Of a DNA stretch of 64,000 nucleotides, positions 44,664-58,944 are shown one piece after another (the stretch's first letter is position 1; every line of letters begins with the position of its first letter). Origin of the DNA: Halosimplex halophilum. Its GTDB lineage: Archaea; Halobacteriota; Halobacteria; Halobacteriales; Haloarculaceae. The stretch covers positions 62,001-126,000 of the forward strand of contig NZ_SRHV01000006.1 of assembly GCF_004698125.1 (NCBI RefSeq). The letters are read 5' to 3'. A model generated the notes under the pieces. The model searched no databases. It was not told the DNA's origin and saw nothing but the letters and a program-made list of their open reading frames with translations. Made by a program: the position numbers and the translations under genes.

Positions 44664-46640
44664 ATGGCGCGTGACAAACCCTTCGAGATCGAGACAGGTG
44701 AGACATCGCGGCGACGGTTCATCCGCATCGCGGGCGCAGTGGGGCTCGCGGGGATGGCCGGTTGTCCGGGGAACCAGGGCGGCGACGGCGGCGACGGTGG
44801 CGATGGCGGCGATGGCGGTGGCGATGACGGAGACGGTGGCGGCGGTGGCGGCGGTGGTGGCGGCGACGGCCGCTCGATCGAGTCACAGTTCTGGGAGGAG
44901 TGGCCCGTCGAGACGAAGGGCTCGTCGGTCAACGACGAGGCCGTCCAGTTCGAGTACGCGGCCGTCGAGGGCGAGTCCGTCGCGGAGGTCGATATGCACT
45001 TCGCGCAGTCGGAGACGCCGTGGATGCGCGAGCACGCGCTGATGATCCAGGAGTCGTTCAACAGCGTCGGCGTCCCGACGAACCTGATCAACGTCCAGCC
45101 CAGCACCCGGTACGGTGAGTACTGGCGGGCCGACATCGGCCACCCGGTGCCGGTGACGATGAACCTCCACGGACCCGACCCACAGCGCGGGCTCGACCCC
45201 AACCCGTTCCTGATGCGCGCGCACCCGGAGACAGGGGGGAACTACTACAACTACAAGAACGACGAGATCACGGAGCTGCTCGACGAGCAGGCCCAGACAA
45301 TCGGCGACACGGAGGCCCGCGCGGAGATCTGCCGGGAGGTCCAGGAGCTGCTCAACGAGGACGCCTACCTCATCGCCTCGAACTTCCCGGACGTGATCAC
45401 GGTCGCCAACACGGCCGACTGGGAGGGGTACGTCCCGACGCCCGGCAACGGGACGACCCGCGACTCGTTCATCTGGACGCAGGTCAACCTCCAGCCCCAG
45501 GGCGACTCGACGACGTGGGTCAAGGGCGTCACCTCCGGGATGCAGGGGACGAACCTGCCGTGGTCCTCGGGCGGCCAGGAGGAGAAGCGGCTGCTGAACG
45601 TCTACGACGGGCTCTACGACGCCTCGCCGGAACTGGAGATCGTCCCGGCGCTGGCGACCGGCCACGAGGTCGTCGACGACACCACCGTCGAGATGGACCT
45701 GCGCGAGGGGGTCACCTGGCACGACGGCGAGTCGTTCGGCCCCGAGGACGTGAAGTTCAGCGTCGAGATGTACAAGCAGTACACGGCGCCCCAGCAGGGG
45801 CCGTTCTACACGCCGATCGAGGGCGTCGAGGTGCTCTCGAACGACGGCGGCGGGCGCGTGCGGTTCAACCTCACCGAGCCCGACGCCTCGTTTCTCACCC
45901 AGCGGGCGGTCCGTAGCGCGATCATCCCCCAGCACCGCTGGAGCGACGTTGACAGCCCCGGGGAGTACAACCCCGACAACCCCGTCGGGACCGGCCCCTT
46001 CCAGTTCGAGAACTGGTCGCAGGGCGAGGAACTGCGCCTCTCGAAACACGAGAACCACTGGCTGTGGGACGACGACACCCGCGAGGAGATCCTCGGCGAC
46101 CACTTCGTCGCCGGCGACGGGATCGACGAGATGGTCGAGGCCAACGTCGGCAACGTCTCGACGCTCATCGGCGCGATGCAGTCGGGCGACATCGACGCCA
46201 TCGGGACGACGGTCTCCAACCAGCAGGCCGAGCGCGCCGCCAACGCCCAGGGCGTCGAGAAGCAGACGACGGACAACTACGTCCCGACCGACGTGCACCT
46301 CAACCACATCGTCCCGCTGTTCCGCGACAAGACGTTCCGCGTCGCGTTCAGCCACGCCGTCGACAAGCAGGGCTTCGTCGACGACGTGCTCGGCGGCCGG
46401 GGCTCCGCCATCGAGGGTCAGCGGCTCCTCTCGCCGCTGCTGACGCCGTACGTCGCCGAGACCGAGCCCTACGAGTACAACGTCGACCGGGCGCGGACGA
46501 TGCTCCGGCAGGCGGGGTACACCTTCGACGGCAACGACATGCTCGTCTGGCCCCAGGGCGACGCCTGGGACGCCTTCGCCGAGCGCGTCGAGCACGGCCA
46601 CGCCACCCGCTCGGAGTTGGACCAGCAGGACTTCTCCTGA
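44664..46640 (+). CDS. Dpp/Opp-type substrate-binding lipoprotein with permuted domain order
   Basis: 658 residues. Tat-lipoprotein signal RRRFIRIAGAVGLAGMAGC (about 17-35), then a 35-residue Gly/Asp linker. Residues about 90-275 look like the C-terminal third of an SBP_bac_5 protein: HALMIQESFNSVGVPTNL, YYNYKNDEITELLDEQAQT and LNEDAYLIASNF. Residues about 305-640 look like the N-terminal and middle parts: LLNVYDGLYDASPELE, VEMDLREGVTWHDGESF, AFSHAVDKQGFVDDVL, NVDRARTMLRQAGYTFDGND. This is the reverse of the usual order, hence a circular permutation. It binds peptides or another bulky solute outside the membrane. The permease gene starts 3 bp after the stop. Confidence 0.88.
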   Translation: MARDKPFEIETGETSRRRFIRIAGAVGLAGMAGCPGNQGGDGGDGGDGGDGGGDDGDGGGGGGGGGGDGRSIESQFWEEWPVETKGSSVNDEAVQFEYAAVEGESVAEVDMHFAQSETPWMREHALMIQESFNSVGVPTNLINVQPSTRYGEYWRADIGHPVPVTMNLHGPDPQRGLDPNPFLMRAHPETGGNYYNYKNDEITELLDEQAQTIGDTEARAEICREVQELLNEDAYLIASNFPDVITVANTADWEGYVPTPGNGTTRDSFIWTQVNLQPQGDSTTWVKGVTSGMQGTNLPWSSGGQEEKRLLNVYDGLYDASPELEIVPALATGHEVVDDTTVEMDLREGVTWHDGESFGPEDVKFSVEMYKQYTAPQQGPFYTPIEGVEVLSNDGGGRVRFNLTEPDASFLTQRAVRSAIIPQHRWSDVDSPGEYNPDNPVGTGPFQFENWSQGEELRLSKHENHWLWDDDTREEILGDHFVAGDGIDEMVEANVGNVSTLIGAMQSGDIDAIGTTVSNQQAERAANAQGVEKQTTDNYVPTDVHLNHIVPLFRDKTFRVAFSHAVDKQGFVDDVLGGRGSAIEGQRLLSPLLTPYVAETEPYEYNVDRARTMLRQAGYTFDGNDMLVWPQGDAWDAFAERVEHGHATRSELDQQDFS

Positions 46641-46643
46641 CAG

Positions 46644-47627
46644 ATGAGCTTCCGACGATTCCTCATCAAGCGGACCGCGATCGCGGCCGTGCTGACGCTG
46701 GTCGCCGTCAGCATCATCTTCGCGACGCTGCGGCTGCTGCCCAGCGACCCGTTCAGCGGGCTGGTCGCCTCGGGGTCGCTGACGCCGGAACAGGTCGCGG
46801 AGCTGCGGGCCATGTACGGGCTCGACGAACCGATCTACGTCCAGTATCTCAAGTACGTCCGGAACCTGTTCACCCTGCAGTTCGGCGTCTCGCTGACCCA
46901 GCAGCGGCCGGTCGGCGAGATCATCGTCCCGGCGCTGGTGAATACGCTCGTGCTCCTGTTGCCGGCGCTGGTCGTGACGGCGGTCATCAGTTCGATCGCC
47001 GGGATGTACGCCGGCTGGACTCGCGGCTCGCGGTTCGAGCAGGCCGGGATCGTCGTCACCACGTTCTTCCGCGCGACCCCCGTCTTCGTGACGGGCATCT
47101 TCCTGCTCATCGTCTTCGCGTACGGCCTCGGCTGGCTGCCCGCCTTCGGGATGCGCAGCCCGATGGCAAACCCCGAGGGGTACGCCCAGACGTACCTCTC
47201 GGTCGACTTCCTGAGACACTACATCCTCCCCTTCTCGGCGACGGTGCTGTTCTACAGCGGGGACTTCCTGATGCTCGCGCGCAACTCCGTCGTCGAGCGC
47301 AAGGGCTCGGAGTTTCTCATGCTCCACCGCGCGAAGGGGCTCTCGGAGATGGAACAGCTCGCCCGCGCCGGCCGCAACTCCCTGTTGCCGCTGGTGACGT
47401 ACTTCGCGCTGCGGACGGGGATGCTGTTCCAGGGGGTGATCACTCTGGAGGTCGTCTTCGCGTGGCCGGGCATCGGCCGCGCGCTCGTCCAGGCGATCCT
47501 CAACCAGGACTACCCGACCGTTCAGGCCGCCGTGTTCATCATGGCGCTGGCGGTCATCGTGATGAACCTCACCGCGGACGTGGCCTACGCCAAACTCGAC
47601 CCCACCGTCGAGGCGGGTGATGTCTGA
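46644..47627 (+). CDS. ABC transporter permease, DppB/OppB type
   Basis: 327 residues with six predicted spans. N-terminal FLIKRTAIAAVLTLVAVSIIF, then the periplasmic MYGLDEPIYVQYLKYVRNL segment usual in DppB, and the EAA-like cytoplasmic loop around LARAGRNSLLPLV followed by TLEVVFAWPGIGRALVQAI and DYPTVQAAVFIMA. It pairs with the next gene as a heterodimeric channel. Its stop overlaps the next ATG (TGATG). Confidence 0.92.
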   Translation: MSFRRFLIKRTAIAAVLTLVAVSIIFATLRLLPSDPFSGLVASGSLTPEQVAELRAMYGLDEPIYVQYLKYVRNLFTLQFGVSLTQQRPVGEIIVPALVNTLVLLLPALVVTAVISSIAGMYAGWTRGSRFEQAGIVVTTFFRATPVFVTGIFLLIVFAYGLGWLPAFGMRSPMANPEGYAQTYLSVDFLRHYILPFSATVLFYSGDFLMLARNSVVERKGSEFLMLHRAKGLSEMEQLARAGRNSLLPLVTYFALRTGMLFQGVITLEVVFAWPGIGRALVQAILNQDYPTVQAAVFIMALAVIVMNLTADVAYAKLDPTVEAGDV

Positions 47628-48547
47628 TGTCCGGCTACTCCATCGACACCGAGACCGCGAGGGACAGGCTGCGAAACGAGTTCGACCGCGCCCGCCGGAC
47701 GCTGGCGGTCGTCTGGCAGGACACCGGCGCGAAGGTCGGCCTCCTGACGCTGGCCGGCTTCGTGTTCATCGGGATCTTCGGGCCGCTGCTCGCGCCCCAC
47801 CACCCGATCGAGGACACCCTCCGCCGCGGCGGGGCGATGATGCGCCTCTCCTCGCCCAGCCCGAAGGCGCCGCTCGGGACGACCTCCTTCGGGAAGGACG
47901 TGCTGAGCCAGTTCCTCGCCGGCGCGCGGCCGACGCTCATCATCGGGCTGTTCGGCGGCGTCGGGACCGGCGTGCTCGGCTTCCTCGTCGGCCTCACGAG
48001 CGGCTACTTCGGCGGCCGCGTCGACGAGCTGCTGATGCGGCTGACCGACCTGACCTTCGCGCTCCCGCTGTTGCCGATGTCGCTGGTGATCCTGTCGTTC
48101 GTGACGCCGAACGTCTGGCTCATCACGGCCGTGCTGGTGCTGTTCCTCTGGAAGATGCCCGCGCGGGTCATCCGCTCGGAGGTCATGACCGTCAAGGAAC
48201 GCACCTTCGTCAAGTCCGCCCGCGCGAGGGGCGCCGGCCACCTGCGGACGATGTTCCTGCACGTGACGCCGAACGTGCTCGGCATCGGCTTCCTCTACAC
48301 GGCCTACGCGGTCGGGTGGTCGATCGTCGCCGGCGCGTCGCTGGCGTTCCTCGGGTTCGGCGACCCGACGACGACCTCCTGGGGCCGGATGCTCGAACAG
48401 GTGTTCCGCTCGGGCGCGATGCGCGTCGCCTGGTGGTGGGTCCTCCCGCCCGCGATCGGCATCGCCGCCGTCACGACCGCGGTCTTCCTCGTCGGCCGCG
48501 CCTTCGAGGAGATCGTCAACCCCGAACTCCGGAGTGAGCAAGAATGA
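47627..48547 (+). CDS. ABC transporter permease, DppC/OppC type
   Basis: 306 residues from ATG 47627. About 40 cytoplasmic residues precede span 1 (VGLLTLAGFVFIGIFGPLLAP). GTTSFGKDVLSQFLAGARPT is the DppC hallmark (GTDxxGRDVLSR). The EAA loop is ARARGAGHLRTMFLHVTPN. Its stop overlaps the start of the ATPase gene by 4 bp (ATGA). Confidence 0.92.
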   Translation: MSGYSIDTETARDRLRNEFDRARRTLAVVWQDTGAKVGLLTLAGFVFIGIFGPLLAPHHPIEDTLRRGGAMMRLSSPSPKAPLGTTSFGKDVLSQFLAGARPTLIIGLFGGVGTGVLGFLVGLTSGYFGGRVDELLMRLTDLTFALPLLPMSLVILSFVTPNVWLITAVLVLFLWKMPARVIRSEVMTVKERTFVKSARARGAGHLRTMFLHVTPNVLGIGFLYTAYAVGWSIVAGASLAFLGFGDPTTTSWGRMLEQVFRSGAMRVAWWWVLPPAIGIAAVTTAVFLVGRAFEEIVNPELRSEQE

Positions 48548-50646
48548 GTCTGCTCGAAGTCGACGACGTGAAGATCACGTATCGGATGCCCGGCAGCGAC
48601 GTCCGCGCCGTCAACGAGGTCTCGTTCACCATCGAGGAGGGGGACAACTACGGCCTCGTCGGCGAGTCCGGCTGCGGCAAATCGACGCTGGCCAAGTCCG
48701 TCCTCGGCCTGCTCGACGACAACGGCGAGATCCGCTCGGGCAGCATCCGCTTCGACGGCCGCGAACTGCGCGACCTGTCGGAGTCGGAGTGGCAGGAACT
48801 CCGCTGGGAGGAGATCGCCTACATCCCCCAGAGCGCGATGGACTCGCTGGACCCCGTGATGACCGTCGGCGCCCAGATCCGCCAGGCCATCACGAAACAC
48901 CGCGACACCTCGACGGCCGCCGCGAACGAGCGCGTCGCCGAGGTGTTCGAGATCGTCGGCCTCGACCCCGCCCGGACGGACGAGTACCCACACGAGTTCT
49001 CCGGGGGGATGCGCCAGCGGGTCACCATCGCGATGGCGCTCGCGCTCGACCCCGACCTCATCATCGCCGACGAGCCGACGACCGGGCTGGACGTGATCGT
49101 CCAGGACAAGATCGTCCACAAGCTCATGGAGATCCAGGAGGAGGTCGACAGTTCCCTCCTGCTGATCACCCACGACGTGGGCGTCGTCGCCGAGACCTGC
49201 GACGAGGTGTCGGTGCTGTACGGCGGGAAGGTGATGGAGCAGGGCGACACCGACGACGTGTTCGCCGACCCGCGCAACCCCTACACGATGGGGCTGAAAA
49301 ACGCCTTCCCCGAGGTCGACGAGTTCGACCAGCAGGCCATCTCGATCCCCGGGTCGCTGCCCGATCTGGTCGGCGAGCCGACCGGCTGCGTGTTCCGCGA
49401 GCGCTGTCCGTTCGCCACCGAGGAGTGCGAGGACGGCCACCCGCCGCTGGTCGACGCCGGCGACCAGCAGTCTGCGTGCTATCGCGCCGACGAGGCCGAG
49501 GACCTCCAGGAGCGGGCCGCAGACCCCGAGACGTGGGGGATCGACGTGCCCGACGACTCGGAGTCCCGGGAGACGGGCGACGTGATCATGGAGACCGACG
49601 GCCTGGAGAAGTACTTCAAGCAGTCCCAGCCGATCCTCGACGACCTGCTCGGCGAGGACCCCGACTACGTCAAGGCGGTCAACGGCGTCGACCTGAACGT
49701 CCACGAGTCGGAGATCGTCGGCGTCGCCGGCGAGTCCGGCTGCGGCAAGTCCACGCTCGGCGAAGTGGTCTCGGCGCTGCAGAGCCGGACCGGCGGCGAG
49801 ATCCGCTTCGAGGGCCGGTCCGTCGAGGAGCTGCTCGACGAGGACACCGCCGAGTTCCGCTCGCAGGTGCAGTTCATCTTCCAGGACCCGTTCGACTCGC
49901 TGAACCCCCGCCAGACCGTGCGGGCGGCCGTCTCCGAACCGCTGAAGATCCAGGGGGTCGCCCCCGACGAGACCGAGCGGCGCGTCCGCGAGACGGTCGC
50001 TGACGTGGGGCTGAACCCGCCGGAGGCGTACCTCGACCAGCACCCCGACCAGCTGTCGGGCGGCGAGCGCCAGCGGGTCGCCATCGCGCAGGCGCTCGTG
50101 CTCGAACCCGACCTGCTGATCTGCGACGAGCCCGCCTCGATGCTCGACGTGTCGCTGAAGGCCAACATCCTCAACATCCTGCGGGAGATGGCCGACGAGC
50201 GCGACATCGGCATCGTCTACATCTCCCACGACCTGGCGAGCCTCTCGCAGATCACCGACCGGCTGGCGGTGATGTACCTCGGCCGGATCGTCGAACTCGG
50301 CCCCACGGCCGAGGTCGTCGAGAACCCGAAACACCCCTACGCGGCGTCGCTGCTGGCCGCCTCGCCGAAGGCCGACCCGACCGAGGACCGAAAGCGGGTC
50401 CTCCTGCCCGGCGAGCCGCCCAACCCGGTCGACCTCCCGGGCGGGTGTAACTTCGCGCCGCGCTGTCCGAAGGCCACCGAGGAGTGTCGGGGGTCCGACC
50501 CCGACCGCTCGGCGTTCGCCGACGACGGCCACGAGGCGGCCTGCTTCTTCCCCGTCGAGGACGTGGAGGACGAGCTGCTGGAGCGATACGCCCGCGAACG
50601 CGAGCGGGCAGAGGGTGAGGAAGTCGAAGACGAGGCGACGCCGTAG
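48544..50646 (+). CDS. Fused dual ATPase of the Dpp/Opp-type transporter (DppD-DppF)
   Basis: 700 residues with two complete ABC domains. Domain 1: Walker [10 protein letters not shown] (about 40), signature FSGGMRQRV, Walker [14 protein letters not shown], and an oligopeptide C-terminal domain with four cysteines (GCVFRERCPFATEEC). Domain 2: GESGCGKST (about 395), [28 protein letters not shown], and [13 protein letters not shown]. The repeated RCP/C-cluster could carry a [4Fe-4S] centre as in DppD. One polypeptide replaces the usual two. Paralogue at 56484-58643. Confidence 0.93.
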   Translation: MSLLEVDDVKITYRMPGSDVRAVNEVSFTIEEGDNYGLVGESGCGKSTLAKSVLGLLDDNGEIRSGSIRFDGRELRDLSESEWQELRWEEIAYIPQSAMDSLDPVMTVGAQIRQAITKHRDTSTAAANERVAEVFEIVGLDPARTDEYPHEFSGGMRQRVTIAMALALDPDLIIADEPTTGLDVIVQDKIVHKLMEIQEEVDSSLLLITHDVGVVAETCDEVSVLYGGKVMEQGDTDDVFADPRNPYTMGLKNAFPEVDEFDQQAISIPGSLPDLVGEPTGCVFRERCPFATEECEDGHPPLVDAGDQQSACYRADEAEDLQERAADPETWGIDVPDDSESRETGDVIMETDGLEKYFKQSQPILDDLLGEDPDYVKAVNGVDLNVHESEIVGVAGESGCGKSTLGEVVSALQSRTGGEIRFEGRSVEELLDEDTAEFRSQVQFIFQDPFDSLNPRQTVRAAVSEPLKIQGVAPDETERRVRETVADVGLNPPEAYLDQHPDQLSGGERQRVAIAQALVLEPDLLICDEPASMLDVSLKANILNILREMADERDIGIVYISHDLASLSQITDRLAVMYLGRIVELGPTAEVVENPKHPYAASLLAASPKADPTEDRKRVLLPGEPPNPVDLPGGCNFAPRCPKATEECRGSDPDRSAFADDGHEAACFFPVEDVEDELLERYARERERAEGEEVEDEATP

Positions 50647-56483: not shown

Positions 56484-58643
56484 TCAGTCGGTCTCGACGA
56501 GCGCGTCGATCCGCGCGGGCTCGGGGACCGCGGAGTCCTCGCTGGGGTGGAAGCAGGCCGCGGCGTGGCCGTCGCCGGCCCAGGCGTCGAGTTCCGGCTC
56601 GGCGCTGTGACACCGTTCGGTCGCCTTCGGACAGCGCGGCGCGAACCGGCAGCCGGTGACCGGTCCCTCGGGGTCGCCGGGGTCGCCCTCGAGGGTGACC
56701 CGCTCGCGGCTCCCCCGCGGGTCCGTCTCCGGGACGGCCGCGAGCAGCGCCTCCGTGTAGGGGTGTTTCGGGTCGGACACGATCCGCTCGGTCTCCCCCC
56801 GCTCGACGAACCGCCCGAGGTACATGATCGCCAGCCGGTCGGCGATCTGCGTGAGGCTCGCCAGATCGTGGGAGATGTAGAGGACGCCGATCCCCTCGGT
56901 GTTGGCCAGCCCGCGCAGGAGGTTGAGCACCTCCGCCTGCAGGGACACGTCGAGCATCGACGCGGGCTCGTCGCAGATGAGGAAGTCGGGGTCGATCACC
57001 AGCGCGCGGGCGATAGCGACCCGCTGGCGCTGGCCGCCCGACAGCTCGTTGGGGTACTTCTCGAGGTGGCGTTCGGCGGGCGCCAGCCCGACCTGTTCGA
57101 GGGTCTCGACGACGGCCTCGTCGCGCTCGCCCGTGCGATAGCCGTGGATCGTCAGCGGCTCCTTGACGAGCTGTTTGACCGTCAGCCGCGGGTTCAGCGA
57201 CTCGTAGGGGTTCTGGAAGACGATCTGGAGCTTCTGGCGGAACGACTGGAGGTTCCCGTCCCGGTAGTGCTCGTGGGAGCGGCCGTCGAAGGTGAACCCG
57301 CCGGCGGTCGGTTCCTCCAGCAGCGCGAGCGTCTGGCCGAGCGTGGACTTGCCGCAGCCGGACTCGCCGACGACGCCGAGGATCTCGCCGCGGGCGACTT
57401 CCAGCGAGACGCCGTCGACCGCGCGGACGTGGGACTGGCCGTCGCCGAGGACCTCCCGGAGCACCTCGCCGCGGCGCTCGTAGACCTCCCGGAGGCTGTT
57501 GGCGAACCCCGTCACCGACGGCGACCCGCCGTCGATCGGGAGCCGGCCCAGCAGCGAGGTCTGCCGTTCGTACCACTTGCGCAGCCCGTCGACCTCGAGG
57601 AGGACCTCCCCGCCCTCGGAGCGGGTGCCGTCGGCGGCCCCGCCCCACGTCGAGGCGTCCGCCGCCTCCGCCCGCATCCGCGTCGCTCGCTCGGCGTGGT
57701 GGCAGGCGACCCGCTGGTTCCGGTAGGGCACGTCGCGGAGGTCGGGCCTACTGGTGGCGCACTCCTCGTCGGCGAACGGGCACCGCGGCTCGAAGATACA
57801 GCCGGTCGGTTCCTCGTCCAGCGTCGGCGGCTTCCCTGGGACCGAGACGAGTTCCCGCCCGTCGTCGTCCAGCGCGGGGTAGGCGTTGCGCAGCCCCATC
57901 GTGTACGGGTTCGACGGGTTCAGGAGGACGTTGTCGACGCGGCCCTGCTCCATCACCGTCCCGCCGTACAGCACGGACATCTCGTCGCAGGTCTCCGCGA
58001 TGACGCTCAGGTCGTGGGTGATGAGCAGCAGCGAGCTGTCCGTCTCCTCCTGGATCTGGAGGATGTTGTCGATGATCTTGTCTTGGACGATCACGTCCAG
58101 CCCGGTGGTCGGCTCGTCGGCGATGATCAGCTTCGGATCGAGGGCGAGCGCCATCGCGATGACGACCCGCTGGCGCATCCCCCCGGAGAACTCGTGTGGG
58201 TACTCGTCGATCCGGTCGGGGTCGAGCCCGACGGTCTCGAACAGTTCGTGTGCGCGTCGGCAGGCGTTGCGGTCGGACACCTCGCGGTGGGTCTGGATCG
58301 CCTGGCGGATCTGCGCGCCGACGGTCATCACCGGGTCGAGCGCGTCGATGGCCGTCTGCGGGATGAAGGCGATCTCCTCCCACAGCAGGTCCTGGCGCTC
58401 GGAGGGCGTCATCGCCCGCAGGTCGCGGCCCTCGAACTCGATCTCGCCGGAGACGATCTCGGCGTGGTCGTCGAGGAGCCCGAGGATCGCCTTCGCCGTC
58501 GTGGACTTGCCCGAGGCCGACTCCCCGGACAGCGCGTAGTTGACGCCGTCCTCGATCGCGAAGGAGACGCCGTTGACGCTGTGGATCGGGCCGTCGCGCG
58601 TGTCGTACCGCACCACCAGGTCCTCGACGTCGAGCAGCGTCAC
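56484..58643 (-). CDS. Fused dual ABC ATPase, Dpp/Opp type, without linked permeases
   Basis: About 719 residues from GTG 58643 (SD-like GCAGGTGG just upstream; GTG 58652 is the other option; the paralogue begins at the matching residue). Domain 1: Walker [10 protein letters not shown] (Ala for Cys), [37 protein letters not shown]. Domain 2: [45 protein letters not shown]. Strongly similar to the 48544-50646 protein, with a longer inter-domain linker. No substrate-binding protein or permease gene is adjacent, so it may energise the 44664-48547 permeases or a distant set. Confidence 0.9.
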
Positions 58644-58944
58644 CGCGACCACCTGCCGCTCGCCGCCCCGACCCGACCCACTACCTGTTCAGAATGCGAC
58701 CAGTCCGACTGCCTCGTGCAGCCATCGTCGAGTCCGACCATCCTGTCCAGAAACTATAACGGATTACCGTTATGAATCCTCGGATCCCACCGATCCCGGA
58801 CACGACAGTCGGACGACCGGTTTCGACCGGCGAGAGTGGCGTTTCGGCGGGCGGTTCCGGTCGCCGGACGGTCGTCGCAGTGTGGCGGACGGAGACCGTC
58901 TCGAACCGGCGAACGAGGGCCGTCCGAGCGGACGGTGATCGGGC

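Follow-up and report, generated by a model that had tools for sequence, protein, structure and literature searches.

Circular permutation of proteins is easy to engineer and is rarely caught recurring in nature. Two natural routes to it are described: duplication, in which a tandem copy is fused and then trimmed, and gene fission followed by fusion (PMC3320104). Among substrate-binding proteins (SBPs), Tp0684/TpMglB-2 of Treponema pallidum (5JX2, 'cluster Bc') is a natural circularly permuted, lipid-anchored protein; the strands of its N-lobe are re-ordered, its permuted part is 13% identical to the canonical sequence, and a single rotation was reported (PMC4990184). The oligopeptide-type SBPs OppA, DppA (E. 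coli, 1dpp) and AppA (B. subtilis, 1xoc) belong to family SBP_bac_5 (PF00496) of cluster C. Here we analyse an SBP gene in a window of Halosimplex halophilum DNA, by which we mean the whole stretch of 64,000 nucleotides.

The SBP gene and its operon

The gene occupies positions 44664–46640 of the forward strand, starts with ATG and encodes 658 amino acids; Pfam, pairwise and half-profile searches and a rotation test point to a circularly permuted SBP_bac_5 substrate-binding lipoprotein. Its first codons (44664–44765) specify a putative twin-arginine signal (SRRRFIRIAG) and a lipobox-like MAGC with a predicted lipidated Cys34. The Pfam TAT_signal profile scored 15.7 bits here, under its cut-off of 22.7, and SRRRFI and MAGC are both present in the sequence. 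A Gly/Asp-rich spacer (aa 35–72; 44766–44879) leads into the canonical C-terminal part, here N-terminal (aa 97–284; 44952–45515). By half-profile limits and alignments, a short junction with approximate limits (aa 276–283; 45489–45512) connects the old C-terminus to the old N-terminus, and the canonical N-terminal part follows, here C-terminal (aa 284–632; 45513–46559). This part closes with AGYTFDGNDMLVWPQG (46512–46559), the loop that is cut in the canonical chain, is common to window-type members and forms the domain's new C-terminal end. Beyond it lies a tail, DAWDAFAERVEHGHATRSELDQQDFS (aa ~633–658; 46560–46637), conserved in the ortholog group of the window's protein, with a predicted helix at 633–644. 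An earlier note had put both the break and the protein end at the AGYTFDGND loop; the break is indeed there, but the protein ends elsewhere, after the conserved tail.

Three genes follow on the same strand: an OppB/DppB-type permease (46644–47627; PF00528 96.4 bits, PF19300 43.4 bits), an OppC/DppC-type permease (47627–48547; PF00528 74.4 bits, PF12911 24.3 bits) and a fused OppD-OppF dual ATPase with two ABC_tran and two oligo_HPY stretches (48544–50646). The Pfam matches thus bear out the description of an otherwise standard operon with two permeases and a dual ATPase, and the SBP is encoded together with OppB, OppC and OppD/OppF partners of the Opp/Dpp type. All three partners are kept beside the window's orthologs at 63–72% identity, and in 36 of 37 permuted loci the SBP gene has oppB downstream of it. 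Since oppB, oppC and the dual ATPase stand behind the SBP gene and are kept in orthologs, the importer itself is ordinary. Very probably, then, the protein is the membrane-anchored SBP of an Opp/Dpp-type importer, with a chain circularly permuted relative to OppA/DppA and a presumed flytrap function. It would bind a putative solute and deliver it to OppBC, with uptake driven by the ATPase. Another fused dual ATPase of the oligopeptide type (722 aa) is encoded at 56484–58652 on the reverse strand; no SBP or permease adjoins it among the large frames listed.

The two halves of the chain are in exchanged order

PF00496 matched the window SBP with 177.6 bits (cut-off 32.4), aligning positions 1–284 of the 368-position profile to aa 325–625, and the last quarter of the profile had no Pfam match in the protein. 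The alignment with Lmo0135 (5isu) was reversed, with the N-terminal part of Lmo0135 at aa 322–620 and its C-terminal part at aa 124–247. AppA, Lmo0135 and a B. anthracis SBP each gave two stretches in reversed order, of which the second was weak. Separate N-half and C-half profiles were built from 60 canonical SBPs and run on all SBP frames. On the window SBP, the C-half profile matched aa 119–259 (48 bits) and the N-half profile aa 301–619 (228 bits); the C-half profile scored 52.2 bits on this protein against a maximum of 10.0 over 500 shuffles.

For the rotation test, the core of the protein, without signal, linker and C-terminal tail, was rotated in silico by 170–195 residues. In native order, the core matched positions 38–358 of the canonical profile with 243 bits; after rotation it gave a single continuous match over about 38–512 with 298 bits. 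A bacterial relative from Aliihoeflea (L046) rose from 288 to 401 bits on rotation, and a canonical control (L072) scored slightly lower after it. No collinear alignment of the window SBP to canonical SBPs was found in Pfam, PDB sequence and fold searches. The canonical N-to-C order is absent, the C-half standing ahead of the N-half, and the protein is therefore described here as a permuted relative and not as a canonical SBP_bac_5 member. Both segments are homologous to the parent, their order is exchanged and their ends are complementary. On this sequence evidence, the window SBP is a true circular permutation of the OppA/DppA chain, consisting of signal and linker, C-part and N-part. The earlier note's segment order, a C-terminal-type segment ahead of N-terminal-type ones, accordingly agrees with the half-profiles, the 5isu alignment and the rotation test; it had also read the break position correctly.

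Predicted structure of the permuted chain

The window SBP was modelled with AlphaFold2 from 35 sequences (pLDDT 84.6, pTM 0.81); pLDDT was under 50 for aa 1–66, and confidence was low in the spacer. Sequential aligners matched only aa ~279–635 of the model, and these to the N-terminal ~340 residues of cluster C chains; Foldseek TM-scores normalised by target length were close to 0.5, which fits a match to part of a chain. Structure alignment with AppA gave Z 24.1, and VIA-align placed aa 283–629 of the model on residues 1–345 of DppA (1dpp) with Z 21.6. When aa 97–284 were folded alone (pLDDT 78), all of the top 50 chains were cluster C SBPs matched in their C-terminal third (Z 8.6–10.1); among them, the model matched OppA 350–517, and its residues 1–183 aligned with 1dpp 337–507 (Z 9.0). 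The predicted models thus place the cluster C fold in both chain parts, and aligning each half to DppA/OppA, a check suggested in the earlier note, gave DppA 1–345 and 337–507 with these models. Because the halves match these two ranges, the canonical chain is cut near DppA 337–345, a position which, from DppA domain limits, we take to be inside the C-lobe. The old termini would be connected by a short linker, the new termini opened in this loop, and the signal peptide, lipid anchor and spacer attached at the new termini, with the usual two-lobed flytrap fold probably retained.

Two readings would remove the permutation altogether, and both now appear extremely improbable. One holds that mis-assembly or a recent local rearrangement produced an artefactual gene, which a single window could not by itself exclude; full-length collinear orthologs with 46–82% identity occur in many genomes and dozens of distant relatives share the cut, and with the same order found in independent assemblies we rejected mis-assembly. 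The other sees in the N-terminal 200 residues an additional domain of unrelated origin and in the remainder a truncated SBP, as might be thought from Pfam matching no more than the N-terminal portion of the family profile. However, the C-half profile reaches 52.2 bits where shuffles reach at most 10.0, the rotated core gives one continuous profile match, and the part folded alone lands on the C-terminal third of a cluster C SBP in each of the top 50 chains, at Z 8.6–10.1. The rotation and half-profile tests led us to reject this reading as well.

The window-type arrangement is widespread

A search for homologues in permuted order, a check proposed in the earlier note, returned many independent assemblies. 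Among 145 related genomes, eleven full-length relatives of the window SBP were found at 47–82% identity, and orthologs at 46–60% identity occur in Halorubrum, Natrinema, Halorussus, Haloferax (H. sulfurifontis, L042) and Halarchaeum. More distant relatives with the same order are present in Pseudomonadota, Bacillota, Actinomycetota, Atribacterota, Deinococcota, Thermodesulfobacteriota and one Desulfurococcaceae archaeon. Among the loci read, 66 frames were classified as permuted and 63 as canonical, with 61 distinct permuted genes after removal of duplicates. All permuted frames but L004 end at an AGY-type loop, which in most of them reads AGYxWDxxGxLxYP and is followed by a tail whose length varies. 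A match to the permuted profile at E 1e-70 was present in at least 69 of 145 haloarchaeal genomes (58 of the 109 good ones), and nearly all of these matches extended across the junction. The corresponding figure for Pseudomonadota was 1 of 249 genomes at E 1e-100, likely an underestimate, as only five candidates were scored per genome at a strict threshold. An Atribacteria MAG (L054:1-13300) carries adjoining canonical and permuted SBP operons on one contig.

With the halves restored to one order, 59 permuted rows formed one clade (SH-aLRT 92) in a quick, unrooted tree with several long branches, for which a canonical-first direction was assumed. A divergent haloarchaeal window-type subfamily (L007:673-2535, G000 contig C3, and L161–L169) occurs about once per genome in many genera. 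After nine L007-like rows were added, the best tree found grouped all 69 window-type rows; a single window-type clade had the higher likelihood and was not rejected (p-AU 0.73). L007 was considered as a further independent event and rejected, all window-type cuts standing together in the best tree (p-AU 0.73), and one origin was therefore counted. By sequence comparison, the cut falls in the same loop throughout the window-type members, and the data fit a single ancient event, after which the gene spread both vertically and horizontally.

Further rotations in a related SBP clade

The paralog L004 in the same genome (contig C1) grouped with the canonical L001, outside the window's clade, in a quick tree; canonical relatives aligned to it as ~282–640 and then ~64–270, nearly contiguously. 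A profile built from seven canonical members of this related clade revealed three rotations, with complementary ends near profile positions 410|412, 532|533 and 179|180. Cut-410 proteins run from 412–611 to 64–410 (21 tree rows, two pairs identical), and cut-533 proteins from 533–615 to 62–532 (10 genes). Cut 180, with 180–612 followed by 69–179, is represented by L141 in genome G049; no second copy was found in a further search of 391 genomes. All three kinds keep signal and linker at the new N-terminus. Rotation tests raised the scores from 447 to 678 bits for cut 410, from 539 to 621 for cut 533 and from 493 to 606 for cut 180, and close canonical relatives of the rotated genes are 40–52% identical to them.

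In a careful IQ-TREE analysis, the rotation labels needed three changes, the minimum; the cut-533 group had support of 100/100, and L141 lay inside the cut-410 group (98/95). By these alignments and trees, there are at least four separate rotations in the SBP_bac_5 family, one of which (cut 180) is nested in the cut-410 group. Three further loci were noted. In L140:894-3788 (genome G029), a cut-533 SBP follows a fused N-terminal part of ~400 aa that matches protein kinases weakly (24.6 bits, below cut-off) and includes an internal RR/hydrophobic segment; the whole is perhaps a membrane receptor-like protein. The window's own genome also holds several divergent SBP-like frames of 600–771 aa (L151–L156; contigs C1, C2 and C4) that matched to mid-profile only. 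Canonical L001:1198-3174 (G000 contig C1) has a junction 11 residues longer, exactly at the cut-410 site; this longer loop could be a plain insertion or the trace of an earlier rotation, and it shows that insertions at that site also arise in other ways.

A junction scar and the route of origin

At its healed 410 junction, L141 reads PGGADAYQEHWQG YDGSDTGGSDFEGLSG YPYSPNEND; in most canonical members, 7 residues separate PGGxxxY from YPYG. HWQG is the C-terminal tail in several cut-410 proteins (L129 ESHWQG, L130 RSHWQGN, L177 RDHWQE). The acidic Gly/Ser stretch and F-x-G-L before YPYS resemble cut-410 N-terminal linkers, those compared being PFDGLDAYPYSPNE in L130, AFGGLDAYPYSANE in L177 and FQGLDSYPYGANE in L129. 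Head-to-tail fusion of a cut-410 gene and subsequent trimming at 179|180 would explain this scar, the evidence for which comes from one gene in one genome. Permutation by duplication would proceed through a head-to-tail copy, fusion and trimming at both ends. For the window's clade, this route is most likely, judging from the scar in a related gene. Among the 79 permuted frames, no repeated segment was found at both ends of the protein, and their flanks held no duplication remnants apart from a neighbouring SBP gene in L054; no double-length intermediate was found beside permuted genes. The 1177-aa frame L090 was tried as such an intermediate and rejected, as it contains no second full SBP and gave a Pfam SBP_bac_5 match only, with the best stretch C-terminal. 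With neither remnant nor double-length intermediate found, the duplication route therefore rests on one scar in a relative.

Gene fission with re-fusion in the other order is itself a recognised route (PMC3320104) and would fit the lack of duplicated remnants beside permuted genes, but we regard it as rather unlikely: in the L141 scar, what was once a C-terminus runs into what was once an N-terminal linker, the outcome predicted by head-to-tail duplication; SBP genes in tandem do exist (L096, L106, L113 and L116); and a non-systematic look through the loci read met no separate half-genes. As to why the ends moved, the change may be adaptive, placing the lipid anchor elsewhere on the SBP in a way that favours docking on the permeases, a tentative idea that we hold somewhat less probable than its opposite. 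A tethering reason was proposed for TpMglB-2 by its authors (PMC4990184), the further rotations retain signal and linker at the new N-terminus, and a simple pattern scan found a lipobox-like motif in 39 of 44 permuted archaeal proteins. The same scan, however, found it in just 5 of the 22 bacterial members; the arrangement thus survives where an anchor is lacking, which weakens the idea. Canonical archaeal SBPs are anchored too, and if permuted chains function just as well, neutral change would suffice. We lean towards a picture in which SBP_bac_5 proteins, especially haloarchaeal ones, are recurrently and even serially permuted by head-to-tail duplications that stay in frame and pass through the low-complexity linker of the lipoprotein, the position of ends and anchor being free or useful to move.

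Significance and comparison with known systems

Within this family, the four rotations, the close canonical relatives, the nested event and the scar make the duplication model directly testable and provide an unusually clear natural record of how protein ends can move. Permuted SBPs are natural templates for permuted sensor proteins, and with them one can ask whether ABC importers are sensitive to where the lipid anchor sits. They also fall into an annotation blind spot, where the family profile covers only part of the protein and sequential structure search gives half-length matches. With the permuted profile, no collinear full-length match to a solved cluster C SBP was found in the best 60 of 114 PDB sequences, and the one alignment shown had swapped order. 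The open PMC text yielded TpMglB-2 and no report of a cluster C permutation; within the limits of these literature and PDB searches, the recurrence, the nested event and the scar seem not to have been described before.

The window-type SBPs are an old, widespread permuted clade, and the related SBP clade acquired its own rotations independently of them. The window SBP is homologous to OppA, DppA and AppA over both halves and has the same operon partners and the same predicted fold; it differs from them in its rotated chain, with the canonical C-terminal part first and termini near DppA 337–345. Like TpMglB-2 it is a natural permuted SBP, but TpMglB-2 belongs to a cluster B sugar-binding family, whereas the Pfam match of the window SBP and its best PDB matches, whether found by sequence or by fold, belong to cluster C. 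Saposin/swaposin and the DNA methyltransferases are different proteins for which the same duplication route has been proposed (PMC3320104); compared with them, the SBP family displays four rotations, one nested in another and bearing a scar.
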